Below are positions 4,542 to 59,524 of a stretch of 64,000 nucleotides of DNA, one piece after another (positions within the stretch are counted from its first letter, which is position 1; the number at the start of each line of letters is the position of its first letter). Source of the DNA: Chloracidobacterium sp. (lineage in GTDB: Bacteria > Acidobacteriota > Blastocatellia > Chloracidobacteriales > Chloracidobacteriaceae); the NCBI GenBank assembly GCA_025057975.1, contig JANWUV010000002.1, forward strand, positions 124,001 to 188,000, written 5' to 3'. Made by a program: the position numbers and the translations under genes. The notes under the pieces were generated by a model. It saw only the letters and a program-made list of their open reading frames with translations, made no database searches and had not been told where the DNA came from.

Positions 4542-4564
4542 GGCGCGCCTTTCTGTTTGCGGCG

Positions 4565-5344
4565 TTATTTTTTCAGGCCAAGCCCAAGGTAAATCACAGG
4601 ACGAAGAATACTCCACCAGCCGGAGAAGGGTTTCATCTTTGTGTAGCCAAGCTCCTTCGGCGGATAAATCTTTGTTACCGGCACTTCTTTGAAGCCATAG
4701 CCAAGGCGAATCGCCTTGAACAGCAGGTAAGGCTCAAGTTCGTATCTGTCAAGCCAATCTTGGTCAATGTTAATGCGTGGGTCGTCAAAGATGGACAATC
4801 GAATAGCGCGAAAGCCGTTGGTGCTGTCGGTAACACGCCGCCGCACTGCGAGGGAAAACAGCAGTGGGTGCACGAAGCGCGTCGCCAGTTGGCGATAGAG
4901 CGGCATGTTGCCGAAGTCGCCGCCCGGTAAGTAACGTGAACCTTGAACAAAATCGCACTCGCCGCTGATAATTGGCTCTAATAGGCGCGGGATTTCCGCC
5001 GGTCGGTCTTTATCATTGCCGGCGAGAATGACAATGACATCGTAGCCCTGTTCTCGGGCATAACGAATCGCCGTCCGAATAGCTGCGCCGGCCCCTAACC
5101 GTCGTTCGTGGCGGAGGTGAATGACGCCTTTCTCACGGATGACCCGCGGCGTGCCGTCGGTTGAGGCGTCGTCCACAACGGCAATCGCGTCCACAATGTT
5201 TGGTGGAAAGCGGTCAAGGACGCGCCCAATTTTCTGCTCCTCGTTGAAGGCAATTGGGACGGCGAGCACTTTGAGCGTCGCACGCCGATTACTCAATGCG
5301 GAGGACGCCGGTTGAGGTTCGGCAGTACCGGTCGCCACATTCAC
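4565..5344 (-). CDS. Family 2 glycosyltransferase
   Basis: About 259 residues of a GT2 glycosyltransferase: LAVPIAFNEEQKIG at the N-terminus, VVDDASTDGTPRVI nucleotide-binding region, GNDKDRPAEIPRL in place of the usual D-x-D/DGD metal segment, then QGSRYLPGGDF and STNGFRAIRLSIF. This pattern is close to dolichyl-phosphate mannose synthase-like enzymes, which move a sugar from a nucleotide donor to a lipid phosphate or growing glycan. There is no ATG at a suitable place. GTG 5344 is chosen because AGGAGAGG lies upstream; TTG 5296, overlapping the stop of the acetyltransferase gene, and TTG 5368 are alternatives. It sits between the aminotransferase and acetyltransferase genes on the same strand. 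Confidence 0.8.
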   Translation of the reverse strand: MNVATGTAEPQPASSALSNRRATLKVLAVPIAFNEEQKIGRVLDRFPPNIVDAIAVVDDASTDGTPRVIREKGVIHLRHERRLGAGAAIRTAIRYAREQGYDVIVILAGNDKDRPAEIPRLLEPIISGECDFVQGSRYLPGGDFGNMPLYRQLATRFVHPLLFSLAVRRRVTDSTNGFRAIRLSIFDDPRINIDQDWLDRYELEPYLLFKAIRLGYGFKEVPVTKIYPPKELGYTKMKPFSGWWSILRPVIYLGLGLKK

Positions 5345-5864
5345 AGCACGTCGTTTCCTCTCCTTCAAAAATCAGGCGCGCACCGCAGCGACAGACCCAA
5401 CCACGCACCGTCGCCGGGTTGCCAAAGCAGAGCGCATGAGGCGGCACGTCTTTGGTGACGACCGACCCCGCGCCGATCATCGCATACTCGCCGATGCGGA
5501 CGCGGCAGACAATCGTTGCGTTGGCCCCAACAGTCGCCCCGCGTTCAATGTAAGTGGGATGACACACCCAATCAGGCTTGCGACTGCGCGGCAACAAGTC
5601 GTTGGTCAGCGCGACATTAGGGCCAAGAAATACGTCGTCGCCAAGATGGACGCCGTTCCAGACCGAAACGCCGTTTTTGATGGTGACGCGGTGGCCGACG
5701 ACCGCGCCAGACTCAATGTAACAGTGGTCGCCAATGTTACAGTCTTCACCGATGATCGCGCCGGGCAAGACATGGGCAAACGCCCAAATGCGCGTGCCGC
5801 GCCCGATCCGGTCACTTTCGACCAGCGCCGTCGGGTGCTTTCGGTAAGGCAGCGCTTCGCTCAT
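5289..5864 (-). CDS. Hexapeptide-repeat N-acetyltransferase (WbpD/WlbB-like) with zinc-ribbon tail
   Basis: A 191-residue left-handed beta-helix acyltransferase. Imperfect hexapeptide repeats run through most of the protein (for example IGRGTRIWAFAHV, GEDCNIGDHCYIE, IGAGSVVTKDVP). GNPATVRGWVC marks the end of the helix. The last 30 residues hold C-x-C and C-C-x-C-G-x3-C, a probable zinc ribbon seen in several WbpD/WlbB relatives. These enzymes acetylate the 3-amino group of UDP-GlcNAc3NA. ATG 5864 is used; a TTG three codons upstream is possible. The pairing with a WbpE-like gene two genes downstream supports a shared aminosugar pathway. Confidence 0.87.
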   Translation of the reverse strand: MSEALPYRKHPTALVESDRIGRGTRIWAFAHVLPGAIIGEDCNIGDHCYIESGAVVGHRVTIKNGVSVWNGVHLGDDVFLGPNVALTNDLLPRSRKPDWVCHPTYIERGATVGANATIVCRVRIGEYAMIGAGSVVTKDVPPHALCFGNPATVRGWVCRCGARLIFEGEETTCCECGDRYCRTSTGVLRIE

Positions 5865-6002
5865 ACAAAACAAAACGGCGAGACAAACTTCTTTATGCCC
5901 CCATGCTATGCCGCTTGAGACTTTTCGCCAAGTGCCTCACAGGCGGACGCTGTGACCGCTTACGCAGCAGTCTCGCTCACTGTTCCGGTTCTCCCTGTCT
6001 AG

Positions 6003-6398
6003 TTAGGGATGTGGCGTGGCAGGTGGAGCCGCTTCGCCCTCTCCCGTCCAAACAAGAACCATATCATGAGGCTTGACCAAGCCCATTTCGCGCGCCGGCC
6101 GCTCAATAGCGCGTGGGTCAACTTCTAAACGGCGCAACGCTTGACGGAGTTGGTGATTTTCAGCCGCCTGTACGGCGACTTGCTCCTGCAAGCGCCGGCA
6201 AGTCTCCGTCGCGGTCCGAAGCTCCGCGTGCGTACGCAGGGTGACTGTAACGCACACGCCAGTCAGCCCGATAAACACCATTGCCACCAACGCATACAGC
6301 GGGACGCCCAGCGTCAGAGCGCGCGGTTTCGGCAGCGCCAGCACTTGCTCCCGGCGGAGTCGCTCGTTACTGATGAATAAAACTCTTGCCTGACTCAA
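6003..6398 (-). CDS. FtsB/DivIC-like septum formation initiator protein
   Basis: A 131-residue bitopic membrane protein: a basic N-terminal tail, one membrane segment near residues 31-53 (LGVPLYALVAMVFIGLTG), a coiled coil about 55-92 rich in Leu, Gln and Glu, and a short C-terminal region, DPRAIERPAREMGLVKPHD, matching the DivIC/FtsB family. These proteins form the FtsB-FtsL-FtsQ division complex. The start is TTG 6398, inside the end of the phosphohexomutase gene (32-base overlap). A strong GGAGG six bases before the TTG supports it. The coupling to a sugar-phosphate mutase is unusual. Confidence 0.78.
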   Translation of the reverse strand: MSQARVLFISNERLRREQVLALPKPRALTLGVPLYALVAMVFIGLTGVCVTVTLRTHAELRTATETCRRLQEQVAVQAAENHQLRQALRRLEVDPRAIERPAREMGLVKPHDMVLVWTGEGEAAPPATPHP

Positions 6399-7767
6399 GC
6401 AGCACCTCCACTTCCGCTTCCGTCTGCGCTTCGGCGTAACAGCGGGCCAGCGGCTCGGTTCCCGACAGACGAATCAAGACCCAGGCCTCATTTTCCAGAA
6501 AAAACTTGACGCCGTCGGTGCGGTCAATCCGTAAAACGCGCTTACCGCCGAAAGCCTCCGGCGGCGCTTCTTCCAACCTTCGTTGCAGATTCAGCCGTCC
6601 TTCCGGCGTCAACCGCACTCCGATGCGCCGGTTGACTAGCGCCCCGACCTCTTCCGCCAATTTGGTCAGCATCGCGCCAATGGATTGTCTCCGCCGCGCC
6701 GCCATCTCCGCCGTTAGAGCGCAGGCCAGCAGGCCGTCCTTCTCCGGAATGTGTCCCTTGATAGACAGGCCGGCGCTTTCCTCGCCGCCAAGGAAAATTT
6801 TCCCTTCCAGAATCAGCTCACCGAGAAACTTGAACCCAACCGGCGTCTCGTGAATTGGGATGCCGCGCCGTGCCGCCACACGATCGAGCCAGTGCGAGGT
6901 TGCCACGCTTCGCCCGACGCCTTCCCGCCACCCACGTGACTCGTGCAAGTAATCCACCAGCAGCGCCAGAATGGCGTTAGCCGGAATAAACCTTCCATCG
7001 CGGTCAACTACGCCGAACCGGTCGGCATCGCCGTCCGTCGCCAACCCTAAGTCATAGCCGTCGCGGACAACAACTTCCTTGAGTTCCAATAAATTGGCTT
7101 CAGACGGCTCAGGGCTGCGTCCGCCGAAGTATGGGTCGCGCTGGTCATGCAGGGTCGTCACCTCACAGCCGTAAGCGCGTAGGAACGCATCAAGGTAGCC
7201 GCGTCCTGTCCCCCACAGCGCGTCATAGGCGATGCGCAGCGGCCGTGAATGCAACACGTCACCGTCAATCTTTTCAGCCAGTACACTGAGGTACAGCTCG
7301 CACAGGTCCACCGTTTCCACTTTCCCCGCCGGAACAACCGAGACGGTCAGGGCGTCGCCCGCAAGGCGGCGCTGAATAAACGTTTCAATCCGCTTTGTGA
7401 CTTCCGGTAGGGCCGGCGCGCCGTTGGCCGTCGAGAACTTCATCCCACCGTACTCCGGCGGGTTGTGGCTGGCCGTAAAGTTGATACCGCCGCGTGCGCC
7501 GTAGGTCCGAATGGCAACCGATAGCGCCGGGGTCGGCGTGTCACGAGCGGTGACATGCACGTCAAACCCGCGCTTCGCCAGTTCTTCGGCGCAGACGGCG
7601 GCGAACCTTTCCGCCATAAAGCGGGGATCATAACCGACAATAAGCAAGCCGCCCGCGCCTGTGCTCTGTAACTCGTCGGCGATGGCTTGCGTGACAAGCC
7701 GAACGTTGGTGAAGGTGAACTCATCCGCCAGAATCGCCCGCCAACCGGATGTGCCGAAGGTAATCAT
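6367..7767 (-). CDS. Phosphoglucomutase/phosphomannomutase
   Basis: A 466-residue alpha-D-phosphohexomutase. It opens MITFGTSGWRAI, the classic start, so ATG 7767 is preferred to the GTG two codons upstream. The phosphoserine loop is TASHNPPEYGGMKF near residue 100. The metal loop is DGDADRFGVVD near 245. The sugar-specificity loop GGEESAGLS lies near 330, and the phosphate-binding RLSGTEP near the C-terminus. It interconverts hexose 1- and 6-phosphates and so feeds nucleotide-sugar synthesis, which suits the downstream aminosugar genes. The exact sugar (glucose or mannose) cannot be read from the sequence. Confidence 0.9.
   Translation of the reverse strand: MITFGTSGWRAILADEFTFTNVRLVTQAIADELQSTGAGGLLIVGYDPRFMAERFAAVCAEELAKRGFDVHVTARDTPTPALSVAIRTYGARGGINFTASHNPPEYGGMKFSTANGAPALPEVTKRIETFIQRRLAGDALTVSVVPAGKVETVDLCELYLSVLAEKIDGDVLHSRPLRIAYDALWGTGRGYLDAFLRAYGCEVTTLHDQRDPYFGGRSPEPSEANLLELKEVVVRDGYDLGLATDGDADRFGVVDRDGRFIPANAILALLVDYLHESRGWREGVGRSVATSHWLDRVAARRGIPIHETPVGFKFLGELILEGKIFLGGEESAGLSIKGHIPEKDGLLACALTAEMAARRRQSIGAMLTKLAEEVGALVNRRIGVRLTPEGRLNLQRRLEEAPPEAFGGKRVLRIDRTDGVKFFLENEAWVLIRLSGTEPLARCYAEAQTEAEVEVLLESGKSFIHQ
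6399..6412 (-). promoter_or_regulatory. Shine-Dalgarno site deciding the TTG start of the FtsB-like gene
   Basis: On the minus strand the sequence GTGGAGGTGCTGC precedes TTG 6398, giving GGAGG with a spacing of six. It lies inside the 3' end of the phosphohexomutase coding region, so the FtsB-like protein is probably translated from the same mRNA. Confidence 0.65.
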
Positions 7768-8067
7768 GGACACTTTGCCGCCGCTCGAAGCGCGCTTCGA
7801 GTCTTTCCAAAGACACTGGAATCAACCACTTGTCACCGGTGGGAAAAGGACGTTCCAAAGAAGGTGCGCCACACTACCATACGCCAACCCACGGGGACAA
7901 TGCTTTTTTCAGCCTACCAGGCAGCGGACATACGGTGTCGTCTCTCCTTGCGCTGGAAGAAAACACTATGAATACTCGCCAATCAGCCCCGCAACAACCT
8001 CGGCGCCTGCCCGGCTGCTATGTTCGCCGCGCGCCGACAGATTGTGCAGCATGTGTTAGGTGTCCCC
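7768..8067. other. Divergent intergenic region, about 300 bases
   Basis: This region separates the leftward phosphohexomutase operon from the rightward HD-GYP gene and should hold both promoters. No clear -35/-10 pair, operator or riboswitch fold was recognised, and I saw no c-di-GMP riboswitch signature. A short frame from ATG 7968 (about 36 codons) ends at 8078, just past the HD-GYP start codon at 8068. It may be a leader peptide or chance. Confidence 0.4.
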
Positions 8068-9897
8068 ATGAAGCGTAAGAAGCCGACCAAAATTCTCTAC
8101 ACGTTTTTGGCCGTTATCCTCGCTTTGACTATTGCGCCGCTGGCGACCGTCAGTTGGAAGCTCATCGGTCTTGGACGCGAGGCCATGCGTCGCAATGAGC
8201 GTGTTGAACAGCTTCGTTCGGTTCTGCTAGTGGCGAACGAATTGCAAACCTACATCGGCGGCTACCGGCAGCAGGTGAGGGGGCTGGCGCACACGCTTGA
8301 GGTGACCGGTGGGGTAGAGACGTTACTCAAACAGAGTGGAACAGCGCGCGATCAATATTTGGAGAAGTTTCTGGGTAATGATCCCAACCTTATTCTGCTA
8401 GGGATTGTCCCGCAAAGCGCCGGTCAGGACACGCAGCTTGTTGCGAAATGGAACAAGGACAAAATTGCCGCTGAAGAAGTCCGAGGCGCTGTCAGTGAGG
8501 CCTTGCAGGCGGTCAATCTGCGTCCCAACCAAACTTATGTGGGCAAGCCGCAGTACATTCGCTCAAGCAGCGAATTTGCGATTGTGTTGGCGCAGGCGCT
8601 ACCCAGGCCAGACGCCCCGCCGGTAGGACAACAGGAGATTATCGTCGCTGTCGTCAGCTTGGAGCCGATTTTCAATTTGGTCAATGTGACCTCGGCCAGC
8701 GGCAATCTCGATCACGAAACGCTGATGCGTAATGGGAGTCGCGTCGTGCTCTTGGTTGACAAGGAAGGGTACGTGCTGGCGCATCCCGACCGGAAGATGG
8801 TGTATTCCCAAGCCAACTTGGCCGACTGGAGTATTGTCACTAAGTGGCGGGGTACCATCGAGGTGGATTTTTCCGCGCCGCTGGCCGAGCCGTTTGAGAT
8901 CAATCTGGGCGGCCAGCGCCTCTCCATGCTGGGAAGCTGCGCGACGGCGCGGATTGCGCCTGATGTCCCGTTGGGTGTCATCGCCGTCATCAACGAAGCG
9001 GCGGCTTATTCATCGGTGACAACCATGATCTGGCAGGCGGCGGCAATGACACTTGTGACAGCACTCATTGCCGCTGTGGTTGGGGTACTACTCGCCTACT
9101 GGATTGCCTCCCCAATTGCAGCCGTCGCCGCCGGCGCGCGCGCCATCGCCGAAGGTGATTTCTCACGGCGCATCACCGTGCGCAGCCGCTCCGAAATCGG
9201 CCAACTCGCCGACGACTTCAACACTATGGCCGATCACATCCAGCGGTACATCAACGACCTGCGCTTCGCTGTCAATGAAAACCGGGAGTTGTTCCTTGGG
9301 ACGGTCAAGGCGCTGGCGGAAGCGATTGACGGCAAAGACCCCTACACACGTGGTCATTCCGAGCGCGTCAAAATGTATTCCGTGCTCATGGCGGAGCAAA
9401 TGGGCCTAAGTCAGGAGGAAATTGAGGACATTCGCGTCGCGGCGCTTCTGCATGATGTGGGCAAAATCGGGATTGAGGATCGCATTCTGAAAAAACCGGC
9501 GGCGCTGACTGAAGAAGAATACGCCATTATGAAGACGCACCCAGAAAAGGGCGCCAAAATTATGGCAGAGATTCCGCAGATGAAAAAATACATCCCCGGC
9601 ATGTACTACCACCACGAATGCATGGACGGCCGCGGTTACCCACTTGGTTTGAAAGGTGACCAGATTCCGTTGATGGCGCGCATCATCAGCGTCGCCGACA
9701 CGTTCGACGCTATGACGACCAACCGTCCCTACCAGCGCGCGATGCCGACCGACGTGGCCGTACAAAAGATCTGGTCGTTTGCCGGGACGCGCTATGACCC
9801 AAACGTGGTGGCTGCCCTTGAAAGCGCGCTCAAGGCTGGCAAACTAGACGAAGTGATCCAAGGCTACCAAGTTGCGCTTGCGGCCGGCAAAGCCTGA
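8068..9897 (+). CDS. Membrane HD-GYP phosphodiesterase with Cache-like sensor and HAMP domain
   Basis: A 609-residue receptor. After a basic start (MKRKKPTK) comes a membrane helix near residues 10-32, a periplasmic sensor of about 270 residues resembling dCache domains (VVLLVDKEGYVLAHPD), a second membrane helix near 310-335, a HAMP linker ending in EIGQLADDFNTMADHI, and an HD-GYP output domain. The catalytic motifs are intact: HDVGKIGIEDRIL and HHECMDGRGYPLG. HD-GYP domains hydrolyse cyclic di-GMP. ATG 8068 is preferred because AGGTG lies just upstream; an ATG 16 codons earlier has no ribosome site. A membrane diguanylate cyclase at 55153-57030 could supply the substrate. Confidence 0.9.
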   Translation: MKRKKPTKILYTFLAVILALTIAPLATVSWKLIGLGREAMRRNERVEQLRSVLLVANELQTYIGGYRQQVRGLAHTLEVTGGVETLLKQSGTARDQYLEKFLGNDPNLILLGIVPQSAGQDTQLVAKWNKDKIAAEEVRGAVSEALQAVNLRPNQTYVGKPQYIRSSSEFAIVLAQALPRPDAPPVGQQEIIVAVVSLEPIFNLVNVTSASGNLDHETLMRNGSRVVLLVDKEGYVLAHPDRKMVYSQANLADWSIVTKWRGTIEVDFSAPLAEPFEINLGGQRLSMLGSCATARIAPDVPLGVIAVINEAAAYSSVTTMIWQAAAMTLVTALIAAVVGVLLAYWIASPIAAVAAGARAIAEGDFSRRITVRSRSEIGQLADDFNTMADHIQRYINDLRFAVNENRELFLGTVKALAEAIDGKDPYTRGHSERVKMYSVLMAEQMGLSQEEIEDIRVAALLHDVGKIGIEDRILKKPAALTEEEYAIMKTHPEKGAKIMAEIPQMKKYIPGMYYHHECMDGRGYPLGLKGDQIPLMARIISVADTFDAMTTNRPYQRAMPTDVAVQKIWSFAGTRYDPNVVAALESALKAGKLDEVIQGYQVALAAGKA

Positions 9898-9951
9898 TAT
9901 ACTCTTTGTTGGTTCTCAACCGCGCCGGACCAACCGGCCCCTACGACGCCC

Positions 9952-11601
9952 ATGCTGTTGAATCGTTACTTTGCGCGCTTCGCGCTGCTGCTCATGGTTG
10001 TCTCCGCCGTTGGCGGCGGACTGACAATGCGTTTCAGTTCGGCGGGCCGAGGCCATCAGGTTGGGCCGCCGGAACACCAGCAGCGCGCTGAACTGGAGCG
10101 GCTGATGCGCGAGGCGCAGGAGGTGGTCATGGCGCACTACGTCGCGCCGACATCGCCGGAAGCGCTGACGAAAGCCGCCATTCAGGGCATGCTCCATGTA
10201 CTGGATCCGCACTCGAACTTCTTCGACAGCAAAGAGTTTCAGGAGATGCGTACGGAGCAGCACAGCCGTTTCTACGGCATCGGCGTCTCGATTGCGCGGC
10301 GGAATGACCGGGTGTACGTCCTCGCCACCATCCCGAACACGCCAGCGGCGAAAGCCGGTCTGCGCGCCGGCGACGCCATCCTCAAGGTCAATGATGAAGT
10401 CGCCGTGGAGTGGACGACCCGTCAAGTGCTTGAAAAGGTGCGCGGCGAACGTGGCGAGCCGGTCTCAATCACCGTTGAGCGATTAGGCGTCCCGAAACCC
10501 CTGACCTTTTCAATGGTCCGGGACGCCGTACCACTGCCTTCGATTCGGACGGCGTTTATGGTGCGTCCCGGCATCGGCTACATTGCGCTGTCGGGCGGCT
10601 TCAACACAACGACGGAAGACGAACTGCGCCGCGCTATGAACGAGCTGACGGCGCAGGGGATGCAGTCCCTGATTCTCGACCTGCGCGGCAATCCTGGCGG
10701 CTTGCTGCCGCAGGCGGTCAGCGTGGCTGACATGTTTCTGCGGCGCGACCAAAAAATTGTCGCCGTCCGGGGCCGCGCCGGCCACGGCGGCGAAGAAGCG
10801 CGGGAATACCGCGCCAAAAACACGGCTCCGTTTGAAAAGCCGCTGGTCGTGCTCATTGATCGTCACTCGGCTTCGGCTTCGGAGATTGTCTCTGGCGCGT
10901 TGCAGGACCATGATCGCGCCCTCATTGTCGGTGAACCGAGCTTTGGCAAGGGGCTTGTGCAGCGTGTGTTTGAACTGCCCTTCGGGGCTGGTCTCACTCT
11001 GACAACGGCGAAGTACTACACGCCCAGCGGGCGCTGCATTCAGCGCTCTTACGCCGGTGGTTTGCTTTACGCCTACTACACGCACCAGTCCGCCGAGTCC
11101 GCGCCGGTTGGTGAAGCAACGGCGACCGATATGGGGCGGACGGTTTACGGCGGCGGCGGCATTACTCCCGACATCATCGTGAAATCGGAGAGCTTCACCG
11201 CCGTTCAATCGAAGCTCTCTGACGCGGCTTTTGAATTCGCCCGGCATTTGGCCGCCGGACTCGTGCCGGGACTGGTGAACTACCGCATTGAACGCACCGA
11301 GCACCACCGTCAGTTGCGCGACAGCGATTTCCCAATCACAGACAAGGTGACGGCGGCGTTTCGTGAGTTTCTCAAAAACGACGCCCGGTTTGCTGGGCTT
11401 GAAAGCGCCGTGATACCCAACTTGGAGTTTACAAAACGCCAAATCCGGCAACACTTGGTGACGGCCGCCTACGGTACGGAGGCTGGTTTTCGCCTCCAAC
11501 TGACCGCCGATCCACAGCTTCTGCGTGCGATTGAGGCTGTCCCACAGGCGGTGGAGTTGGCGCAGCGCGCTTGGTTGGCCGCCGGACAGCGCCGTGAGTG
11601 A
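9952..11601 (+). CDS. ctpA: S41 family C-terminal processing protease (CtpA)
   Basis: A 549-residue serine protease. The N-terminus is a signal peptide or anchor (residues 6-25, hydrophobic). A PDZ domain spans roughly 90-175, with the ligand loop and IPNTPAAKAGLRAGDAILKVND. The S41 core contains LRGNPGGLLPQAV, the serine in SASASEIVSGAL near 306-312 and the lysine in GKGLVQ. These Ser-Lys proteases cut the C-termini of periplasmic or photosystem-type proteins. About 150 residues after the core (from 400 on) resemble no domain I recognise. The gene starts 54 bases after the HD-GYP gene and may share its transcript. Confidence 0.9.
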   Translation: MLLNRYFARFALLLMVVSAVGGGLTMRFSSAGRGHQVGPPEHQQRAELERLMREAQEVVMAHYVAPTSPEALTKAAIQGMLHVLDPHSNFFDSKEFQEMRTEQHSRFYGIGVSIARRNDRVYVLATIPNTPAAKAGLRAGDAILKVNDEVAVEWTTRQVLEKVRGERGEPVSITVERLGVPKPLTFSMVRDAVPLPSIRTAFMVRPGIGYIALSGGFNTTTEDELRRAMNELTAQGMQSLILDLRGNPGGLLPQAVSVADMFLRRDQKIVAVRGRAGHGGEEAREYRAKNTAPFEKPLVVLIDRHSASASEIVSGALQDHDRALIVGEPSFGKGLVQRVFELPFGAGLTLTTAKYYTPSGRCIQRSYAGGLLYAYYTHQSAESAPVGEATATDMGRTVYGGGGITPDIIVKSESFTAVQSKLSDAAFEFARHLAAGLVPGLVNYRIERTEHHRQLRDSDFPITDKVTAAFREFLKNDARFAGLESAVIPNLEFTKRQIRQHLVTAAYGTEAGFRLQLTADPQLLRAIEAVPQAVELAQRAWLAAGQRRE

Positions 11602-11658: not shown

Positions 11659-12828
11659 ATGCCTCAAACGGATTTCTTGAATTTCGACAGTTTGCTGGCT
11701 CCGGAAGAGATACAGATTCGGGAGGTTGCCCGACAGTTCGTCCGTGAGCGCGTGTTGCCGGTGATAGAAGACTGCTACGAGCGCGGCGTCTACCCGACTG
11801 AACTCATCAAGCCAATGGGGGAACTTGGCTTTTACGGCTGTACTTTGCCGGAAACCTACGGCTGCGCCGGCCTCAACAATATCGCTTACGGCCTCATCAT
11901 GCAGGAACTGGAAGGGGGCGATTCAGGAGTGCGGAGCTTCGCCTCGGTGCAAAGTTCGCTGGTGATGTACCCGATTTATATGTACGGCACGGAGGAGCAG
12001 AAGCGCAAATGGCTGCCGGCGCTGGCGAAGGGCGAGAAAATCGGCTGTTTTGGTTTGACCGAGCCGGATTACGGCTCAAACCCGGCTGATATGGTGACGC
12101 GCGCCGAGCGGACAAAGTACGGTTGGAAGCTCAACGGCGCGAAGATGTGGATTACTAATGGCTCTATCGCCGACGTGGCTGTTGTCTGGGCCAAAACCGG
12201 CGCGGACGCCCGTAGTATTCGCGGCTTTTTGGTCGAGAAAGGAACGCCCGGTTTCAGCGCGCCGGAAATCAAAAGGAAACACTCGCTGCGGGCCTCGATT
12301 ACGTCGGAACTGATCTTCCAAGACTGTGAAATCCCGGAAGAAAACATTTTGCCGAACGTGGAAGGATTGCGCGGCCCGCTGTCGTGCCTCAATCAAGCGC
12401 GGTACGGCATTGCGTGGGGTGCGGTGGGGTCGGCCATGGCGACCTACACGACGGCGCTAGAGTATTCGCTGTCACGGATTCAGTTCGGCAAGCCCATTGC
12501 GGCCTTTCAGCTGACACAGCGCAAGCTGGCGGATATGATCACAGAAATCTCAAAGGCGCAGCTATTGGCCTATCATGTCGGCAAGCTCAAGGACGCCGGA
12601 AAGGTCACGCCAGCGCAGATTTCCATGGCCAAGCGCAACAATGTGGCGATGGCGCTGGGAGTCGCCCGTGAAGCGCGGACGATTCTTGGCGCAAATGGCA
12701 TCAGCGCCGAATATCCCGTCATGCGGCACATGAACAATCTTGAATCGGTGTTGACCTACGAGGGCACGCACGATATCCACACGCTGATTATCGGCGCAGA
12801 AGTCACCGGCATTCAAGCTTTCAAGTAG
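11659..12828 (+). CDS. Acyl-CoA dehydrogenase, glutaryl-CoA dehydrogenase type
   Basis: A 389-residue flavoprotein. Features of the glutaryl-CoA dehydrogenase branch are DFLNFDSLL at the start, [30 protein letters not shown], the substrate-binding arginine region [12 protein letters not shown], and the catalytic glutamate in [12 protein letters not shown], followed by ITGIQAF-like VTGIQAF. It would oxidise and decarboxylate glutaryl-CoA to crotonyl-CoA in lysine or aromatic breakdown. ATG 11659 follows AAGGAG at about 12 bases; an in-frame ATG at 11632 lies before this site. No other gene of the pathway is next to it. Confidence 0.9.
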
Positions 12829-42501: not shown

Positions 42502-42789
42502 ATGGCTATCACGATTCAAGATGTTGAAAAAATCGCCCAACTGGCCAACTTGCGCCCGACGCCCGCCGATCTACCCCGGCTGGCGGCGCAAATGGGCGCA
42601 ATTGTTGAGTACTTTGATCGCTTGAATGAGTTAGACACGACGGATGTGCCGCCGATGGCCCACTGTACAGCTATTGGCGATACGGCGTTACGCCCTGACA
42701 TTCCCCACACGCCGCCCGGCACGGAGATCGCCTTGGCGAATGCGCCGGAAGCCGGTTATGGGCACTTCAAGGTGCCCCGCGTGCTCTGA
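42502..42789 (+). CDS. gatC: Asp/Glu-tRNA amidotransferase subunit C
   Basis: A 95-residue GatC. ITIQDVEKIAQLANLRPTPADLPRLAAQMGAIVEYFDRLNELDTTDV is the family core, and PDIPHTPPGTEIALANAPEAGYGHFKVPRVL is the usual ending. GatC stabilises the GatA-GatB complex that turns misacylated Glu-tRNA(Gln) or Asp-tRNA(Asn) into the amide form. gatA and gatB are not next to it. ATG 42502 follows GAGGG; a TTG four codons upstream is not needed. Confidence 0.92.
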   Translation: MAITIQDVEKIAQLANLRPTPADLPRLAAQMGAIVEYFDRLNELDTTDVPPMAHCTAIGDTALRPDIPHTPPGTEIALANAPEAGYGHFKVPRVL

Positions 42790-42822: not shown

Positions 42823-42953
42823 ATGAACTCGGACGGCAAGGAAAACTTGGGTTGGCGCGCCGTTCTCCGGTGGACGCTCTGGAAGACGGTCTGGTGGCTG
42901 ACGCTGGTTGCGGCAATTCGGGCGCAGGTTTCCCAACCCCAAACATTGTCTAA
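42823..42953 (+). CDS. Possible signal peptide region of the downstream receptor kinase, in another frame
   Basis: Frame 1 starting at ATG 42823 reads MNSDGKENLGWRAVLRWTL, then a hydrophobic stretch with several Trp and Val, and ends in IRAQVSQ, an Ala-x-Ala-type cleavage site. This looks like a Sec signal peptide of 30-35 residues, the normal start of two-component-propeller receptors, but the body of the receptor continues in frame 3 from about 42954. The frame-1 reading runs out at 43056. The two are probably one gene broken by a one-base shift near 42945-42956; see findings. Confidence 0.55.
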
Positions 42954-42989
42954 CAACCGGCGTTCGGCGACGGCGGACAGGCGTCCCCG

Positions 42990-45900
42990 ATGGCGTTCTT
43001 GCCGGGGTCGCGCACCTTCACCGACGCCGACGGCCTACCGCAAAACTCCGTTATGACAATGACCACCGACGCCGATGGCTATTTGTGGGTCGGGACGCAG
43101 GACGGCGCGGCGCGGTATGACGGACATCAATGGCAACGGTTCAACATGCCCAGTGAAAGGGGGTCAAACTGGGTACGGGCGCTGTTGCCGGCGACGGACG
43201 GGCGGCTCTGGTTTGGCACCGACGCCGACGGCGTTTTTGTTCGGAAGGAGGGGCGGTTTACCGAGCACTACCACGCCGGCCAAGCTGGCTTTCCACACAA
43301 CACGGTCACGGCGCTGGCGGAACTGCCGAACCGGGGCGGCCGTCCAACAATCTGGGCCGGGACGCTGGGCGGCGGACTGACGCGCTTTGACGGCGAGCGG
43401 TGGCATACATTCAAACAGTCCAACGCCGGTTTACCAAGCGACCGCATCCGCGCGCTGCTTGCTTCCGAACGGGACGCACAACCGCTGCTGTGGGTGGCGA
43501 CTGAAGCAGGGTTGGTCGAGTGGCGGGACGACCGTGTGCAGCGCATCCACTCAACGGCGACCGGACTTCCCGCCGACGACATTCGGGCGTTGGTTGAAGT
43601 GCGCACGCCGGACGGCGACCAAACCCTCTGGGTCGGCTTCGCCAACGGCGGCGTCGCCGCCTACCGCGCCGGACGGTGGACGCTGCTGCGCGCCGACTTC
43701 AACGGCACGCGACAAATCCGCAGTTTGACGGCGACCTATGCGCCGAACGGCGAATGGACGCTCTGGGTCGGCACGAACGGCGGTGGGCTGGCCGCCTACT
43801 GCAAGGGCGAGTGGACGCTCTACAACGTGGATTCCAAGGTCATTCCCAACAGCGAAGTTTCATCGCTGTACGAGACGCGCCAGGGCAACGGCCCGCCGCT
43901 GTTGTGGGGCGGAACAAACGGCGGCGGCTGGGCGCGTCTGCGGCTGGGCGCATGGCATCGCGTTCAACTCATCCCGGATGTGATTCCCACGGTGGGCGTC
44001 AAGGCGCTGCTGGAGTACGCGGAAGCCGACGGTTCCCGTACGTTCTGGATCGGTACGCGCAACCATGGCGCGGCCTGTTTACGGGGCGGTCGGTGGGAAG
44101 TGTTTCAGCTCGAAAACAGTCCGCTGCCCAGCCGGTTTGTATCCTGCTTATACCGAACCGACAAAGCGTCCGACGGCCCGGCCGTGTGGCTTGGGACGGC
44201 GACCGGTGGGCTAGCCCGCCTGCAAAACGGCCGGTGGACGATTTTCAACCGTGACAACAGCGTCCTACCGGACAACGGGGTTTGGAGTATGCTCGAAACC
44301 GAAGACGACGCCGGACGGCCGCAACTTCTGATTGGAACGGAAAAGGGCATGGCGGTATGGCGGGACGGCGAACTGCGGCGCTTTGCGGACGACACACGCC
44401 TGCCTAACCCGTATGTGACGGCGTTGTTGGCGACCAACGAGCCGACCAGCGGCAAACGCCTGTGGTTCGGCACGTTCGGCGGCGGCGTGGCCAGTCTGTA
44501 CCGTGGTCAATGGACGGTCTATGACCGCGCCAACGGCGCGCTGCCCAGCGACGTGGTGCGCTCCCTACATTGGATGGAACACAACGGCGAACGAACGCTG
44601 TGGGTTGGTACGTACGGCGGCGTCGCCGTCGGCGATCTACAGAGCGGCGCTCCAACGTGGCATGCGTTGCGTGACAACACCGACCCGGCGCTGCCGAACA
44701 ACGTCGCGTACGAAGTTCGTCACGACCGGCAAGGGCGCGTGTATGTGTTTACCAATCGGGGCGTGGCGCGACTGACGCGCAGTGCGACATCCGGCTGGCG
44801 ACAGCCGACAGTGGAGACATTCACCACCGAGGACGGCTTGCCCAGCAACGAATGCAACGGCGGTGCAGGGCTGTGCGACACCGAGGGACGACTCTGGATC
44901 GGGACGGTCGCCGGACTGGCGATGTTCGATGAGCGCAGGGAAATCACGGAGCGGATGAGCGCGCCGCCGCGTCTGACGCGCGCGCTCATTCGGGATCAGG
45001 AAGGCCGGTTTGACCAGCCGTTGACGCTCGCCTACGACCAAAACGCGATGACGTTTGAGTATGAGTTGCCGGGCTTTTTCCGGTGCGCTGAGACCCAGTA
45101 CGCCACGCAGTTGCTCGGCTATGACGCCGAGCCGACGCCTTGGACGACCGACCGGCGGCGAACTTTCGCCAGTTTGCTGCCCGGAACGTATGCCTTCCGC
45201 CTGCGCGCCCGCGACTATCTTGGACGGGTGCAGGAAGTGACGACGGCCGGTTTCACCATCCGGCCGCCGTGGTGGGCGCGCTGGTGGGCGTTCGTGTTGT
45301 ACGCCTTGGCGTTTGTCGGACTGGGCTTTAGCGTCATGCAGTGGCGCGTGTATCTCCTACGGAAACGGACGCTCGAACTGGAGGCCAAGGTCGCCGAACG
45401 AACGGCCGCGCTCGCCGCCGCCAATCAAAACTTAGCCGAAAAGAACGAGAAGCTCGCGGCGGCCAACCACGATCTGGCGCGCAAGAACGAAGAACTGGCT
45501 GAGGCGCAGCGACGCACAAACTTGGTGTTCAGCGCCTTGGCGGAGGCGTTGCCCGGTACGGTGCTCGACGGCAAGTACCGACTGGATGTGAAAATCGGAG
45601 CGGGCGGCTTCGGCACCGTGTACGAAGCCACCCAGTTGACGCTCAACCGCAAGGTGGCGGTCAAGGTGTTCCGGCCGTCGCCCGGCAACGACTCACCGCA
45701 GGCGTTGGAGCGTTTTCGGCGGGAGGGCGTCTCCGCCTGTCGCGTCAATCACCCCAACGCGGTGGCGGTGTTGGGTTCGGGCGTCTCAGCCGAAGGCATC
45801 GCCTACATCGTCATGGAGTTGCTGCAGGGCTACACGCTGGCGGATGAACTCCGGCGGTGCGGCAGATTGCCGCCGGAGCGGTGCGCGGAGATTCTGATTC

Positions 45901-46514
45901 CCGTGTTGGATGTTCTCGAAGCCGCCCACGCGGAAGGCGTCATTCACCGCGACATCAAGCCGGACAACATCTTTCTGCACCAGACGAAAGACGGTGAAGT
46001 CGTCAAGGTGGTGGACTTCGGCGTGGCGAAGTTGATGGGCGAAGACCCGCTTGGTGAGCAAACCGTCAGCGCGCTGGGAACAGTAGTCGGGACGGCCGCC
46101 TATTTGGCCCCCGAACGGATCAAACACTTGGTTTACGATGGAAAATCCGACGTGTACGCCGTCGGCGTCACGCTTTACCAGATGCTGACTGGAGCGCTGC
46201 CGTTTACCAGCACGAGCGGTTTTGTCGGCATCGCTCTGCAGCACTTGACGCACCAGCCGCGCCCCACCCACGAAGTACGGCCCGATGTTCCTTACGAACT
46301 GAGTCAGTTGGTGGCACAGGCGCTGGAGAAGGACCCGGCGGCGCGTCCCACCCCGCGTGACCTGGTCTTGGCGTTGAGCTGGCGCCTATCTCAGCCGATG
46401 CTATACGACAGTCGCGGCTTTCCAAAAGTCGTACCGAGCGGCGCAGCGCCGTACGACGAGCACAATACACCGACACTCACCTTTGATGAACGCCTACCGT
46501 CGTCCGAAACCTGA
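42990..46514 (+). CDS. Two-component-propeller receptor with Ser/Thr protein kinase output
   Basis: A 1174-residue protein from ATG 42990; the frame opens at 42954. About fourteen repeats of the type LWVGTxGGGLAxY-x-G-x-W fill residues 10-650, consistent with two seven-bladed Reg_prop propellers. A Y_Y_Y domain follows (about 665-755: YDQNAMTFEYELPGFF, LPGTYAFRLRARDYLGRVQE), then one membrane helix near 761-785, a heptad coiled coil (LAEKNEKLAAANHDLARKNEELAEA), and a Hanks-type kinase from 860 to 1130 with GAGGFGTVYEAT, VAVKVF, HRDIKPDNIF, DFGVAKL and GTAAYLAPERI. The kinase looks active. Usually this sensor ends in a histidine kinase, so the Ser/Thr kinase output is unusual. No signal peptide is present in this frame. 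Its end overlaps the next kinase gene. Confidence 0.88.
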   Translation: MAFLPGSRTFTDADGLPQNSVMTMTTDADGYLWVGTQDGAARYDGHQWQRFNMPSERGSNWVRALLPATDGRLWFGTDADGVFVRKEGRFTEHYHAGQAGFPHNTVTALAELPNRGGRPTIWAGTLGGGLTRFDGERWHTFKQSNAGLPSDRIRALLASERDAQPLLWVATEAGLVEWRDDRVQRIHSTATGLPADDIRALVEVRTPDGDQTLWVGFANGGVAAYRAGRWTLLRADFNGTRQIRSLTATYAPNGEWTLWVGTNGGGLAAYCKGEWTLYNVDSKVIPNSEVSSLYETRQGNGPPLLWGGTNGGGWARLRLGAWHRVQLIPDVIPTVGVKALLEYAEADGSRTFWIGTRNHGAACLRGGRWEVFQLENSPLPSRFVSCLYRTDKASDGPAVWLGTATGGLARLQNGRWTIFNRDNSVLPDNGVWSMLETEDDAGRPQLLIGTEKGMAVWRDGELRRFADDTRLPNPYVTALLATNEPTSGKRLWFGTFGGGVASLYRGQWTVYDRANGALPSDVVRSLHWMEHNGERTLWVGTYGGVAVGDLQSGAPTWHALRDNTDPALPNNVAYEVRHDRQGRVYVFTNRGVARLTRSATSGWRQPTVETFTTEDGLPSNECNGGAGLCDTEGRLWIGTVAGLAMFDERREITERMSAPPRLTRALIRDQEGRFDQPLTLAYDQNAMTFEYELPGFFRCAETQYATQLLGYDAEPTPWTTDRRRTFASLLPGTYAFRLRARDYLGRVQEVTTAGFTIRPPWWARWWAFVLYALAFVGLGFSVMQWRVYLLRKRTLELEAKVAERTAALAAANQNLAEKNEKLAAANHDLARKNEELAEAQRRTNLVFSALAEALPGTVLDGKYRLDVKIGAGGFGTVYEATQLTLNRKVAVKVFRPSPGNDSPQALERFRREGVSACRVNHPNAVAVLGSGVSAEGIAYIVMELLQGYTLADELRRCGRLPPERCAEILIPVLDVLEAAHAEGVIHRDIKPDNIFLHQTKDGEVVKVVDFGVAKLMGEDPLGEQTVSALGTVVGTAAYLAPERIKHLVYDGKSDVYAVGVTLYQMLTGALPFTSTSGFVGIALQHLTHQPRPTHEVRPDVPYELSQLVAQALEKDPAARPTPRDLVLALSWRLSQPMLYDSRGFPKVVPSGAAPYDEHNTPTLTFDERLPSSET

Positions 46515-48285
46515 TGTCGTTCCGATGCGCCGTCGCCCCCAGCAGGGACGGGCGTTGACGGCGGCGTTGGTGGCGTTGCTGACGGGTGTGTGTCTAGTTG
46601 GTCTCTGGGCGACCTACGCCTTGCGCCATGCCTATGAGCGTGAAGCCGAAGGACGTGCGCAGGCGGAAGCACTCTTGGCGGCGCGGCGACTGGCCGCCGT
46701 CATCGGCGCTGTGAGTGAACTTTCGGCGGCGCATCTGCCACCGCCGCACACCCCACCCAACTTGAGTATGGCGGCGGCGCTCTATGATCTGACTGGCAAG
46801 CGCGCTGCCGCGACCTACGGCGGGTCGGCGGCGCATGAGTTGCCATTGCCGGAACGCCTCCCCATTGAACCAACTGGAATAGACGGCGAGCGAGTCAGCC
46901 GCTTATCCGGGGGAGAGTGGTTGGTGACCGTACCGTTGTACACGGCCGCTAGGTCGCCGGTTGGAACGCTGGGCGTGGTGGTGCGCCATCGCACCGTTCG
47001 GCTCTCCGCCATCGTCATCCGCTTGGCGTATGAACTCCCGTTGTGGCTGGCTGTCGCCGCCGCCGGATTCTGGCTAGTTCGCCATCTTGTTGCACCGTCC
47101 CGAACGCTTGCCGGCTCGTCCGACAGCCGTGCGCCAACGTCAGCGGCTTCGGTTGAAGTTGTCATGGCTGGCTATCAGGCTGTTATTGACCGCCTACAGT
47201 CGGCCGGGCGGGAACTAGAACGCCTGCGCAGCGACGCCGAAACGCGTGCCGTTGCCCAGGCGCAGTTCAGCGACCGGCTTGTGGCCAGCATTCCTGACGC
47301 GCTCATTGTAGCGGCGGCAGACGGCACAGTTGTGTTGGCGAACTTGGCGGCGCAGCGGTTGTTTGGTCGGTCGTCAGGCGTTGACTACCGTGTGTTTTTT
47401 GCGGACGCGCCGGAACTAGCTGAGATGATCGGCGCCGCTCTGATGGACGGCAGCCTGCGGCGGAAAGCTGAAATGGAAGTGGTGCTTGCCGGCCACCGGC
47501 GAACGCTTGATGTGAGCGTGGCGCCGATTCCCGGAGCGGCAAGCGTCCTTTGCTTGGTCGCCAATATCACAGAGTTAGCGGCCTTGCGGGCAACGATGCG
47601 AGCCAAGGAAACCCTCGCCGGCGTCGGCGAACTGGCGGCAGGCGTGGCGCATGAGTTCAAAAACTCCTTGGCGACAATAGACGGCTACGCGCGCCTGCTG
47701 GCGCAGGACGCGCCGCAGTCACCGGCGGCGGCGGCGTTGCGGGGGGAAGTGCGCCGATTAACGCAGGTCGTGACGGATTTTCTGACATTTGCGCGGCCGA
47801 TGCGCGTCGCCTTCGCGTCCGTTAACCTGTCGGATATCGCAGCCGAAGTCGTCACCGCACTGTGCGAGACAGCCGAGCGACGCGGCGTGACATTGGAGGT
47901 TGCGCCGGACTTACCAATGGTCGCCGGGGATGCGGGCCTGCTCCGGCAGGCTTTGGAGAACCTTCTTCGCAACGCCATCGAAGCCATCCCGGACGACGCG
48001 CCGACAAAACGGGTGACACTCCGCGCGGAAACCGACCCGACTAAGACAACGCTCATCGTCGAGGATTCCGGCGGCGGTCTGCCGCCGGAGGTCGCCGCGA
48101 ATCTCTTCGTGCCCTTTTTCACGACGAAAAAGCATGGGCATGGGCTGGGACTGGCTATTGTTCGGAAAATCGTCCTCGGTCACAATGGGCGCATTGAGGC
48201 TAGCAACCTACCCCAAGGCGGCGCACAGTTTCGCATCTCGTTGCCTCTGCAAACACCTGCTGAAACGCGAGGTTTCGCACGATGA
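46486..48285 (+). CDS. Membrane sensor histidine kinase
   Basis: About 599 residues. A membrane helix lies near residues 23-43 and a second near 180-200, with a periplasmic region between. Then a PAS-like segment (about 265-370: ASIPDALIVAAADGTVVLANLAAQRLFGR), the phosphoaccepting H389 in AAGVAHEFKNSLATIDGYARLLA, and an ATPase domain with NLLRNAIEAIP, VEDSGGGLPPEVAANLF and GHGLGLAIVRKI. The start is ATG 46486, overlapping the receptor kinase gene by 29 bases; ATG 46525, just after that gene's TGA, is an equal alternative. Coupling to a Ser/Thr kinase gene suggests a shared pathway. Its stop overlaps the next gene. Confidence 0.88.
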   Translation: MNAYRRPKPDVVPMRRRPQQGRALTAALVALLTGVCLVGLWATYALRHAYEREAEGRAQAEALLAARRLAAVIGAVSELSAAHLPPPHTPPNLSMAAALYDLTGKRAAATYGGSAAHELPLPERLPIEPTGIDGERVSRLSGGEWLVTVPLYTAARSPVGTLGVVVRHRTVRLSAIVIRLAYELPLWLAVAAAGFWLVRHLVAPSRTLAGSSDSRAPTSAASVEVVMAGYQAVIDRLQSAGRELERLRSDAETRAVAQAQFSDRLVASIPDALIVAAADGTVVLANLAAQRLFGRSSGVDYRVFFADAPELAEMIGAALMDGSLRRKAEMEVVLAGHRRTLDVSVAPIPGAASVLCLVANITELAALRATMRAKETLAGVGELAAGVAHEFKNSLATIDGYARLLAQDAPQSPAAAALRGEVRRLTQVVTDFLTFARPMRVAFASVNLSDIAAEVVTALCETAERRGVTLEVAPDLPMVAGDAGLLRQALENLLRNAIEAIPDDAPTKRVTLRAETDPTKTTLIVEDSGGGLPPEVAANLFVPFFTTKKHGHGLGLAIVRKIVLGHNGRIEASNLPQGGAQFRISLPLQTPAETRGFAR

Positions 48286-48815
48286 GCCTGATGATCAGTA
48301 TGCTGCTGGTTGGCAGCCTGGTCGGCGAGCCGATTGCTGCGGCTAGCGACCCGTGGTTGGCGGCGCAGGCGTCGTCTCAAAGCAAGAAGCAACCACGACG
48401 GCCCCCGCGTCGCTCGGCGCCGCCCACCGAGCCGACGCCCCTGCCCGACGACTTGCCACTTGGCGCACAAGAGCTTCTGGTAACCATCAAAGCTGGTGGA
48501 ATGAACCCATTGGTTGGCGCTTCCCCCTCCGCTGCGGCGGCGCGTGAAGCAGTAGCGACGCCGAGTGAGAACAGCGAAAGCACCGAGGCCCCTCTCTCAC
48601 CAGAGGAAGTGTGGCGACGTGCAGTGGAAGAGGCGCGTGAAGAACTGCGGGACGCCGAAGCGGAGAAACAGCGCCAAGACAACGCCGACAGCCCACCGCC
48701 ACCCGGACAAGATGCATCTCTCCGTGTTTTCAAGGCGCGGGAGAACCTCCGTCGTCTGCTCGAAGAAGGCAAGGCTAAGCAGTACCGCGAGCGACCAGTG
48801 GAAACGCAACCGTAG
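48282..48815 (+). CDS. Proline-rich, charged small protein, probably exported
   Basis: A 177-residue protein of unknown function. The first 22 residues are hydrophobic and end in IAAAS, a possible signal peptide. A Pro/Arg-rich stretch follows (residues 33-60), then a charged helical region (about 105-170) with EEARE, DAEAEKQRQ and FKAREN that may form a coiled coil. The start overlaps the histidine kinase stop (ATGA), so the two are coupled. No known domain is recognised. The start could also lie at ATG 48291. Confidence 0.6.
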   Translation: MSLMISMLLVGSLVGEPIAAASDPWLAAQASSQSKKQPRRPPRRSAPPTEPTPLPDDLPLGAQELLVTIKAGGMNPLVGASPSAAAAREAVATPSENSESTEAPLSPEEVWRRAVEEAREELRDAEAEKQRQDNADSPPPPGQDASLRVFKARENLRRLLEEGKAKQYRERPVETQP

Positions 48816-57754: not shown

Positions 57755-59524
57755 ATGATGAGGGAAGCGACCGGCTTCCGGCCGCCGTGGGGAAAAAGGG
57801 CTGTGGTGCGACGAGTGGTTTGGTTGGTTCTCGTGGTTTGGTTGGGGAGTTGGCCGGCGTCCGTTGTGGGACGGACGCCGCCAGCCGACGCATTGTTTTT
57901 CAACGGCGTCATTTACACGCTGGACGAACGCCAACCGCAGGCGGAGGCTGTCGCCGTCCGGCGTGGTCGCATCGTCTTTGTCGGTACCAAGTCCGAAGCT
58001 ATGGCCTATCGCGGCGCTCGGACGCGCCTCATAGACTTGGGTGGAGCCGTCATGTATCCCGGCTTTACCGACGCCCATTGCCACCTGTTTGGAATCGGTG
58101 AACGAGAACTAACGCTCAACCTTGAGGGGACGACCACCCGCGAGGCTTTTTTGGCCGCCGTCAAGGCCCAGGTCGCTCGGACGCCGAAAGGCGAGTGGGT
58201 GGTCGGACGCGGCTGGATTGAGACCTTCTGGACGCCGCCGACCTTTCCGACCGCCGCCGAGTTGGACGCCATCGCCCCGGAGCATCCGGTGTATCTGACG
58301 CGCGCCGACGGCCATGCCAGCGTCGTCAACTCACGGGCGCTAGCGTTGGCCGGCGTCAACGAAAAAACGCCGAATCCGCCGGGCGGCGACATTCTCCGCG
58401 ATCGCGCGACCGGCAAACCGACCGGCATGCTGATTGACGCCGCCCAAAGCTTGGTCGGACGGCTGTTGCCCAAGCTGTCGCCGGAGGACTATGAACGGGC
58501 AGCCGTGGCGGGGGCGCAGCGTGAGCTGTCACTAGGGTGGTGTACGATCCACAACGCAGGCAGTTCACTGTTGGAAACTGCGATTTTGCGGCGGCTGTGC
58601 CGGGAAGGAAAAATCAAGCTGCGCATCTACAACGCCGCCGCCAACCGTCCAGCGGAAGTCGCAGCGCTCTTCCGCAGCGGCCCGATTATCGGCGAAGCCA
58701 ATGGACGTTTCACTATGCGCGCCATCAAGGCGTACATGGACGGTGCTCTGGGGTCGCGCGGCGCGGCGTTGCTTGCCCCGTACAACGACGCGGAAACTTC
58801 GGGACTGTTCCTGACGCAACCGGACGACTTGCGCGCGCTATGTCGGCGGGCGCTGCGGGCGGGAATTCAGATTGAAACACACGCCATCGGCGACCGTGCT
58901 AACCGGCAGGTATTGGACATTTACGAGCAGGTTTTTCGTGAAATTCCGGCGGCGCAGCGGCGCGTCCGCGACCCGCGCTGGCGCATTGAACACGCCCAAG
59001 TGCTGCATCCCGACGACATCCCGCGCTTTGCCAAACTGGGCGTCATTGCCTCGATGCAGCCGTCGCACGCCATTAGCGACTTACACTTTGCGCCGCGCCG
59101 ACTGGGGTTGGAACGTCTGGCCGGTGCTTACGCTTGGCGGTCACTGCTGGACACCGGCGCCGTCATTGCCGGCGGTTCAGATGCACCGGTTGAGCGCGGT
59201 GAGCCGTTGATTGAGTTTTACGCCGCCGTCGCGCGTAAGGACTTGACTGGTTTTTCAGGCGAAGGCTGGCATCCTGAACAGGCGGTTGGGCGGCTTGAGG
59301 CGCTCAAAATGTTGACGCTATGGCCAGCCTATGCCGCCTTTGAAGAACGCGAAGCAGGCAGCATTACTGTCGGCAAGCGCGCCGACTTCACCGTGTTGTC
59401 GGCCGACTTATTCACTGTCCCAGAAGCCGATATTCTCAAGGCGCGCTGCGTGATGACCATTGTCGGCGGCGAAGTGGTTTTCGCTGCTGGCGCTTTTGCT
59501 GAAAAAGCCGTCGTCTCTCACTGA
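57755..59524 (+). CDS. Exported amidohydrolase (YtcJ-like)
   Basis: A protein of about 589 residues. A twin-arginine-free signal sequence (VVRRVVWLVLVVWLGSWPASVVGR) suggests export. The amidohydrolase fold begins at FFNGVIYTLDERQPQAEAVAV, with metal ligands in GFTDAHCHLFGIGERE, later HAIGDRANRQV, RIEHAQVLHPDDIPRFAKLGVIASMQPSHA, and the final aspartate in AGGSDAPVERGEPL. YtcJ/N-substituted formamide deformylase-like proteins act on amides and related compounds; the substrate is unknown. The start is uncertain: ATG 57755 and ATG 57758 are adjacent and GTG codons near 57805 would give a shorter signal peptide. Confidence 0.87.
   Translation: MMREATGFRPPWGKRAVVRRVVWLVLVVWLGSWPASVVGRTPPADALFFNGVIYTLDERQPQAEAVAVRRGRIVFVGTKSEAMAYRGARTRLIDLGGAVMYPGFTDAHCHLFGIGERELTLNLEGTTTREAFLAAVKAQVARTPKGEWVVGRGWIETFWTPPTFPTAAELDAIAPEHPVYLTRADGHASVVNSRALALAGVNEKTPNPPGGDILRDRATGKPTGMLIDAAQSLVGRLLPKLSPEDYERAAVAGAQRELSLGWCTIHNAGSSLLETAILRRLCREGKIKLRIYNAAANRPAEVAALFRSGPIIGEANGRFTMRAIKAYMDGALGSRGAALLAPYNDAETSGLFLTQPDDLRALCRRALRAGIQIETHAIGDRANRQVLDIYEQVFREIPAAQRRVRDPRWRIEHAQVLHPDDIPRFAKLGVIASMQPSHAISDLHFAPRRLGLERLAGAYAWRSLLDTGAVIAGGSDAPVERGEPLIEFYAAVARKDLTGFSGEGWHPEQAVGRLEALKMLTLWPAYAAFEEREAGSITVGKRADFTVLSADLFTVPEADILKARCVMTIVGGEVVFAAGAFAEKAVVSH

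Follow-up and report, generated by a model that had tools for sequence, protein, structure and literature searches.

A predicted propeller receptor with a PknB-like Ser/Thr kinase output in Chloracidobacterium and further Acidobacteriota

A 64,000-nucleotide stretch of a Chloracidobacterium sp. genome (assembly GCA_025057975.1, contig JANWUV010000002.1, positions 124,001 to 188,000 of the forward strand; hereafter, the window) carries a putative receptor gene at positions 42,823 to 46,514. We consider it likely that this gene specifies a one-pass envelope receptor, in which an exported double propeller and Y_Y_Y domain of the hybrid two-component system (HTCS) type is connected to a PknB-like kinase by a single membrane helix followed by a probable coiled coil, and that the separation of its signal peptide from its body is an error or a very recent loss-of-function mutation and not a mechanism.

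RESULTS

Predicted architecture of the receptor

The receptor body is encoded on the plus strand by an open reading frame (ORF) that extends from an ATG at 42990 to 46514; the last stop ahead of it in frame 3 is a TAA at 42951, which leaves the frame open from 42954. The predicted features of the gene are as follows.

42823..43056, +, frame-1 ORF with signal peptide (approximately 42823-42924; cleavage placed by eye after AIRA)
42951..42990, +, poorly conserved linker behind the frame-3 stop at 42951, where a change from frame 1 to frame 3 would occur; the six orthologs are continuous here
42954..46514, +, receptor kinase body, frame 3, first ATG at 42990, 1174 amino acids
43050..44927, +, 14 propeller blades, residues ~21-646 (AlphaFold2 strands, Foldseek match to BT4663, Reg_prop 5e-21)
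44970..45260, +, Y_Y_Y-type beta domain, residues ~661-757 (sub-threshold Pfam match; 4a2l alignment to residue 763)
45279..45344, +, single transmembrane helix (hydropathy; modeled helix at 765-803)
45345..45536, +, probable coiled coil, residues 786-849 (modeled with low confidence as helices 765-803 and 808-849)
45528..45578, +, juxta-kinase element FSALAEALPGTVLDGKY, conserved in the alignment of receptor kinases, with variants behind other front ends
45576..46364, +, Hanks-type Ser/Thr kinase domain, PknB-like (PF00069, 172 bits)

Two Pfam families matched the body protein above their cut-offs, namely, Pkinase (172 bits) and Reg_prop (72.5 bits), the latter agreeing with the earlier note's assignment of the front end to Reg_prop profiles. 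HisKA, HATPase_c, Response_reg, and helix-turn-helix (HTH) families gave no Pfam match in the body protein at an E value of 0.01. The AlphaFold2 model, for which the window protein was combined with 20 relatives (mean predicted local distance difference test score [pLDDT], 82.1; predicted template modeling score, 0.61), contains 14 four-stranded blades, counted manually from the strand list, together with a beta domain at residues 661 to 757, a helix across the membrane at 765 to 803, a second helix at 808 to 849, and a kinase fold. When this model was searched with Foldseek, BT4663 and BT3049 chains occupied ranks 1 to 11 (E values of 2e-43 to 3e-40, target TM-scores of 0.72 to 0.77, root mean square deviations of 5.2 to 6.1), with BT4663 at ranks 1 to 9 and 11 (best E value, 2e-43), and these were followed by BT4673 and then PknB. 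BT4663 was also found by phmmer with a single ectodomain sequence (1.3e-38), and the family profile found BT4663 at 9e-137 and PknB at 7e-72.

The strongest 19-residue hydrophobic window lies at residues 765 to 783 (1.84), and the next separate one, at 924 to 942 (1.64), falls inside the kinase domain. Within the coiled-coil stretch, pLDDT is mostly below 50 at residues 796 to 811 and 843 to 851, and this part is therefore weakly predicted. The catalytic residues (K892, E912, the HRDIKPDN motif at 986 to 993, and the DFG motif at 1009 to 1011) are invariant in 21/21 aligned proteins. The earlier description of about 14 Reg_prop repeats, a Y_Y_Y domain, one membrane helix, and an active-looking Hanks kinase thus agrees with the 14 blades, the single helix, and the intact catalytic residues found here, and the coiled coil proposed in front of the kinase is probable, in a low-confidence region of the model.

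Distribution of propeller-kinase receptors

A scan of 84,980 species genomes returned at least 537 relatives, and the 80 best loci among them were retained. A single ORF spans both propeller and kinase in 20 of these 80 (L052 and L057 are cut by contig ends). By their labels, 12 of the 20 come from Chloracidobacterium or Blastocatellia and 5 from Acidobacteria, while 2 derive from a metagenome-assembled genome (MAG) labeled Actinomycetota (its scaffolds carry the name Acidobacteria) and 1 derives from a MAG labeled as a deltaproteobacterium. The last of these (L046:7794-11318) is the one match at 1e-60 in that MAG and may reflect transfer, mislabeling, or contamination.

Among the matches listed, the receptor gene is the only one in the window genome to span both parts. 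Another region of that genome, C16:70545-71876, matches query residues 708 to 1134 across a TAG; it was not counted as spanning, because the open frame there (L134:1960-3915) starts just before the kinase. The Blastocatellia MAG SSF51 (G301, 8.3 Mb) contains 70 matches at 1e-60, of which 20 extend without interruption from residue 611 or earlier to residue 1120 or later (manual count among the rows listed). Across the phylum, 48/297 genomes match at 1e-60, and the 65 corresponding rows comprise 9 that span both parts, 38 with the propeller half only, and 18 with only the kinase half. In G057 and G069, a pair of half matches lies within one open frame. Since the phylum search scored two candidates per genome, it does not show absence elsewhere. 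In G032 (L179), which belongs to another family of the phylum, a propeller protein was also classed as a kinase. The earlier claim of a propeller receptor with a Ser/Thr kinase in place of a histidine kinase is supported, and the class is a conserved one, present in all seven genomes of the genus as well as in other Acidobacteriota.

Tandem propeller kinases were observed in G001 (L137:2871-6554 and 6555-10319) and G006 (L138:2160-5831 and 5611-9486). The propellers within these pairs are 38 to 41% identical. Their kinase halves are identical at 816/819 and 813/816 bases within each species and 86% identical between the species, a pattern that points to concerted evolution of the output domain. 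For 29 other pairs in five genomes, leaving out two receptors missed by the pattern, the kinase halves are 57 to 66% identical.

The signal peptide and the frame break

The earlier note had placed the signal peptide in frame 1 and the body in frame 3, and ORFs at 42823-43056 and 42990-46514 are indeed both present. Judged by eye, the frame-1 peptide has a basic start followed by a hydrophobic stretch and an alanine-rich end, and third-position GC in frame 1 over 42823-42981 is 0.77, equal to the value of the body in its own frame. The comparison with relatives that had been proposed revealed orthologs in 6/6 other genomes of the genus (73 to 79% identity), each with a continuous frame extending 171 to 222 bases upstream of the matched start; in the G006 ortholog, the upstream starts are GTG or TTG only. 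In all six, a hydrophobic, signal-peptide-like start (by eye) lies in frame with the propeller, whereas in the window it is out of frame.

Against the signal peptides of four of the six orthologs, the score of the frame-1 peptide was reached by 1, 8, 16, and 22 of 500 shuffles, and frames 2 and 3 scored below frame 1. We therefore regard the frame-1 segment as the probable signal peptide and the window copy as having been broken once, in the poorly conserved linker. The break was seen in the window's assembly only, a draft of 86 contigs. There is no X_XXY_YYZ slippery heptamer in the overlap of frames 1 and 3 and no base run longer than four within 42901-43060.

Compared with the six orthologs, the window protein has a ratio of nonsynonymous to synonymous substitution rates (dN/dS) of 0.11 to 0.15, with dS at 1.0 to 1.6. 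In the ortholog tree, G002, G003, G004, and G006 all have longer branches than the window copy (0.101); G001 and G005 are closely paired at the end of a long stem. The proportion of nonsynonymous differences (pN) against three orthologs is as low in the kinase part (0.11 to 0.12) as in the propeller (0.11 to 0.13). An old pseudogene is not supported by dN/dS and branch length.

We also considered whether the window might be generally frameshift-ridden. A reciprocal comparison with six relatives yielded four candidate rows in the window, none of which was judged convincing: a short-ORF match in G005, a G004 row over a thiL-like gene on the other strand, and two short G003 ORFs inside the open window ORF 57755-59524. 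One candidate row lay in G003. This comparison is insensitive to divergent termini and missed the known break in the receptor gene. Separately, window ORF 57755-59524 matches G003 in two frames (L128, around base 11906), which suggests a frameshift in the G003 copy.

Output swapping among propeller receptors

In the fetched loci, 86 propeller ORFs were classified by output as Ser/Thr kinase (47), histidine kinase (23), or other (16, incomplete ones included). The propeller tree contains 79 of the 86 (46 kinase tips) and is a single FastTree topology with several low internal supports; for it, six outputs were relabeled GGDEF and one histidine kinase by eye. Left out were the cut loci L003 and L004, the propeller-only L005, the cut copies of L130 (L006 and L007), and the incomplete L031 and L035. 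On this tree, the kinase/non-kinase label requires 12 parsimony changes, without direction, compared with 25.2 on average and never fewer than 19 across 200 shuffles; the output label therefore follows ancestry yet has switched many times. L130, a histidine kinase of the window genome, pairs with the Ser/Thr kinase L055 (support, 0.99), and the window's ortholog group lies beside three proteins assigned to GGDEF by eye (support, 0.91). Judging from these sequences, one front end appears to have been joined repeatedly to a Ser/Thr kinase, a histidine kinase, or GGDEF. A further ORF of the window genome, L132:2888-7066 on contig C3, has the same kind of propeller front end, behind which a membrane helix and what looks like an ATPase domain were recognized by eye.

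The kinase module behind other sensors

FSALAEALPGTVLDGKY or a close variant, together with the kinase, also occurs behind 7TMR-DISM (L058, L059, and L080), 7TMR-DISM with PAS (L071), dCache-HAMP (L061), and receiver domains (L060 and L062). Related kinases in which the FSALAEALPGTVLDGKY pattern is not matched follow PAS (L066) or form part of a receiver-kinase-extracytoplasmic function (ECF) sigma factor fusion (L088). In L060, a propeller-histidine kinase-receiver frame (82-4179) overlaps a receiver-Ser/Thr kinase frame (4164-5723), a gene order from which this locus would be the two-protein form of the single chain encoded in the window. L088:7617-9692 is a 691-amino-acid frame in which a receiver, a Ser/Thr kinase, and an ECF sigma factor are fused, and the ORF upstream of it gives a match of the histidine kinase type.

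A joint reading of these loci, which we put forward tentatively and rate slightly below an even chance, is that one Hanks-kinase transmitter module, made up of coiled coil, FSALAEALPGTVLDGKY-type element, and kinase, has assumed in Blastocatellia and related Acidobacteriota the part that histidine kinases play in other systems, being placed behind propeller/Y_Y_Y, 7TMR-DISM, dCache-HAMP, PAS, and even receiver domains. The propeller histidine kinase of L060 would then pass phosphate to the receiver-Ser/Thr kinase, and the window gene would short-circuit this relay by fusion.

Gene neighborhood and a possible sigma-factor output

Three genes flank the receptor gene.

42502..42789, +, gatC-like gene directly upstream, 85 to 89% identity in 6/6 other genomes (start codon inferred)
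46486..48285, +, PAS-type histidine kinase of uncertain start, which abuts or overlaps the receptor gene; in 46489-48282, HATPase_c and HisKA exceed their cut-offs and PAS does not
48282..48815, +, small ORF, third gene of the conserved block, with a 49 to 53% identical counterpart in 6/6 congeners

The upstream gene is presumably gatC, and the small ORF at 48282-48815 has no Pfam match. The order gatC, receptor, PAS-type histidine kinase, small ORF is kept in 6/6 congeners, and the neighboring histidine kinase may be a partner of the receptor.

At L048, downstream of a receptor kinase (7746-11591), come an ECF gene (11688-12293) containing HTLQTTALINE and then another kinase. For ECF43 sigma factors, the consensus surrounding the phosphorylated threonine is stated to be QTTA (PMC13147305). 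The L048 sequence thus hints, weakly and at this locus only, at a route from receptor to sigma factor. Elsewhere in the window genome there are eight PF07638 matches, and three ECF proteins of its relatives (L139, L140, and L142) read QPTA at the QTTA site.

DISCUSSION

Because the frame is intact in 6/6 congeners and the gene shows neither signs of decay nor a slippery heptamer, the break is most likely an error or a very recent mutation and not a switch. We lean slightly toward a local sequencing or assembly error, with a true gene that is continuous: the contig belongs to a draft of 86 contigs, and the six relatives are continuous and the gene under selection, although no homopolymer longer than four lies at the site. 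Somewhat doubtful, but to be taken seriously, is a real and recent frameshift that inactivates or mislocalizes the receptor in the window strain, where a start at ATG 42990 would leave it with no signal peptide and the wrong topology. The assembly does show the break, and three 60-kb comparisons, with 14 to 21 relative ORFs per genome matching the window at 55% or more, produced a single candidate frameshift row in the window, which we took for a weak match to a short ORF; this argues against a generally error-ridden sequence. Set against such a frameshift are the gene's position as the sole propeller kinase in all seven genomes of the genus, among the matches listed, the lack of visible relaxed selection, and the lack of a stop in the remaining 1174 codons.

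The suggestion of the earlier note that the receptor needs a one-base frameshift, or forms a reversible switch, is not supported. Two overlapping open frames in the correct order and offset are what programmed -1 frameshifting or a phase-variable switch would require to join signal peptide and receptor, but the heptamer and longer base runs are lacking, the break is absent from the relatives, and the body is under purifying selection; we rejected a programmed frameshift gene and regard either mechanism as very improbable. Hardly credible at all is the notion that the kinase is a fusion artifact or a decayed appendage of an ordinary HTCS. Related genomes do use the same front end for histidine kinases, but 20 relatives share the layout, the catalytic residues are invariant, and pN is as low in the kinase as in the propeller.

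Several points weigh against the receptor model and the reading of its frame break preferred here. All functional statements on the receptor rest on homology. In the window protein, Y_Y_Y scores 18.7 bits, below the Pfam cut-off of 26.6; the region is backed by the BT4663 alignment through residue 763 and by the fold match, and in the relative L042 the domain scores 33.8 bits, over the cut-off. The frame-1 peptide has no detectable similarity to the signal peptides of the other two orthologs, for which 273 and 214 of 500 shuffles reach its score and frame 2 outscores frame 1 (28 versus 23 to 24). At 1.0 to 1.6, synonymous divergence approaches saturation, and dN/dS is an average over a long period, so that a very recent loss would leave no trace in it. 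The assembly sequence alone does not separate a real mutation from an assembly error. With regard to output, no ECF gene lies beside the receptor in the window genome, and relatives of the L088 ECF domain occur in only 2 (L048 and L088) among 50 loci and the window; because of this count, an ECF sigma factor as general partner was set aside and kept as a weak candidate.

In the mechanism that we favor, ligand binding to the ectodomain would alter the receptor dimer via the Y_Y_Y domain, helix, and coiled coil, and the kinases of the dimer would phosphorylate each other and then Ser/Thr targets. Ser/Thr phosphorylation would thereby replace the phosphorelay of the Bacteroides sensors as output. 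One possible target, suggested weakly by a single relative, is an ECF43-like sigma factor; the co-conserved neighboring histidine kinase is an alternative candidate.

In this receptor class, a sensor ectodomain that has been well studied is wired to another kind of kinase, and its output has switched repeatedly within one phylum. Natural pairs with related front ends and different outputs would allow signal transmission through one helix to be tested independently of the enzyme behind it. Should the joint module reading hold, His-Asp relays would end in Ser/Thr phosphorylation of sigma factors, as the single receiver-kinase-ECF chain of L088 suggests. More broadly, the receptors point to bacterial lineages that use Ser/Thr kinases as general receptor outputs, as plants and animals do.

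Comparison with known systems

We found no report of a Reg_prop/Y_Y_Y receptor Ser/Thr kinase in open-access full texts, and such proteins may be described in subscription papers or annotation databases. Within the open-access literature searched, the earlier note's claim of an undescribed receptor class therefore stands for the Reg_prop double propeller plus Y_Y_Y architecture. It does not extend to propeller-sensing Ser/Thr kinases as such, because PknD is already one (PMC2877116).

The hybrid chain of HTCS sensors also carries an HTH DNA-binding domain. The gut Bacteroides HTCS BT4663, BT3049, and BT4673 share with the window receptor a homologous ectodomain. In HTCS, the Reg_prop repeats build two seven-bladed propellers, behind which come Y_Y_Y and a membrane helix (PMC3243724). 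The Bacteroides proteins contain a histidine kinase core and a receiver in the same chain, whereas the window receptor is without HisKA, HATPase_c, and receiver and has a Hanks kinase instead.

Hanks kinases coupled to ECF43 sigma factors (PknS/EcfK and PknT/EcfP) are transmembrane proteins, as is the predicted window receptor, but unlike it have an adjacent ECF gene; L048 has a nearby ECF gene with QTTA, for which coupling and ECF43 membership are putative. The catalytic Lys, HRD, and DFG motifs of Hanks-type receptor kinases are common to the window sequence, and the PknB-like kinase fold is shared with Mycobacterium tuberculosis PknB and PknD. In PknD, an extracellular six-bladed propeller built of NHL repeats lies C-terminal to the kinase (PMC2877116, PMC1262709), in contrast to the 14 blades and Y_Y_Y N-terminal to the kinase in the window receptor. 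Finally, Reg_prop/Y_Y_Y-GGDEF proteins have the same front end as the window receptor and a different output enzyme.

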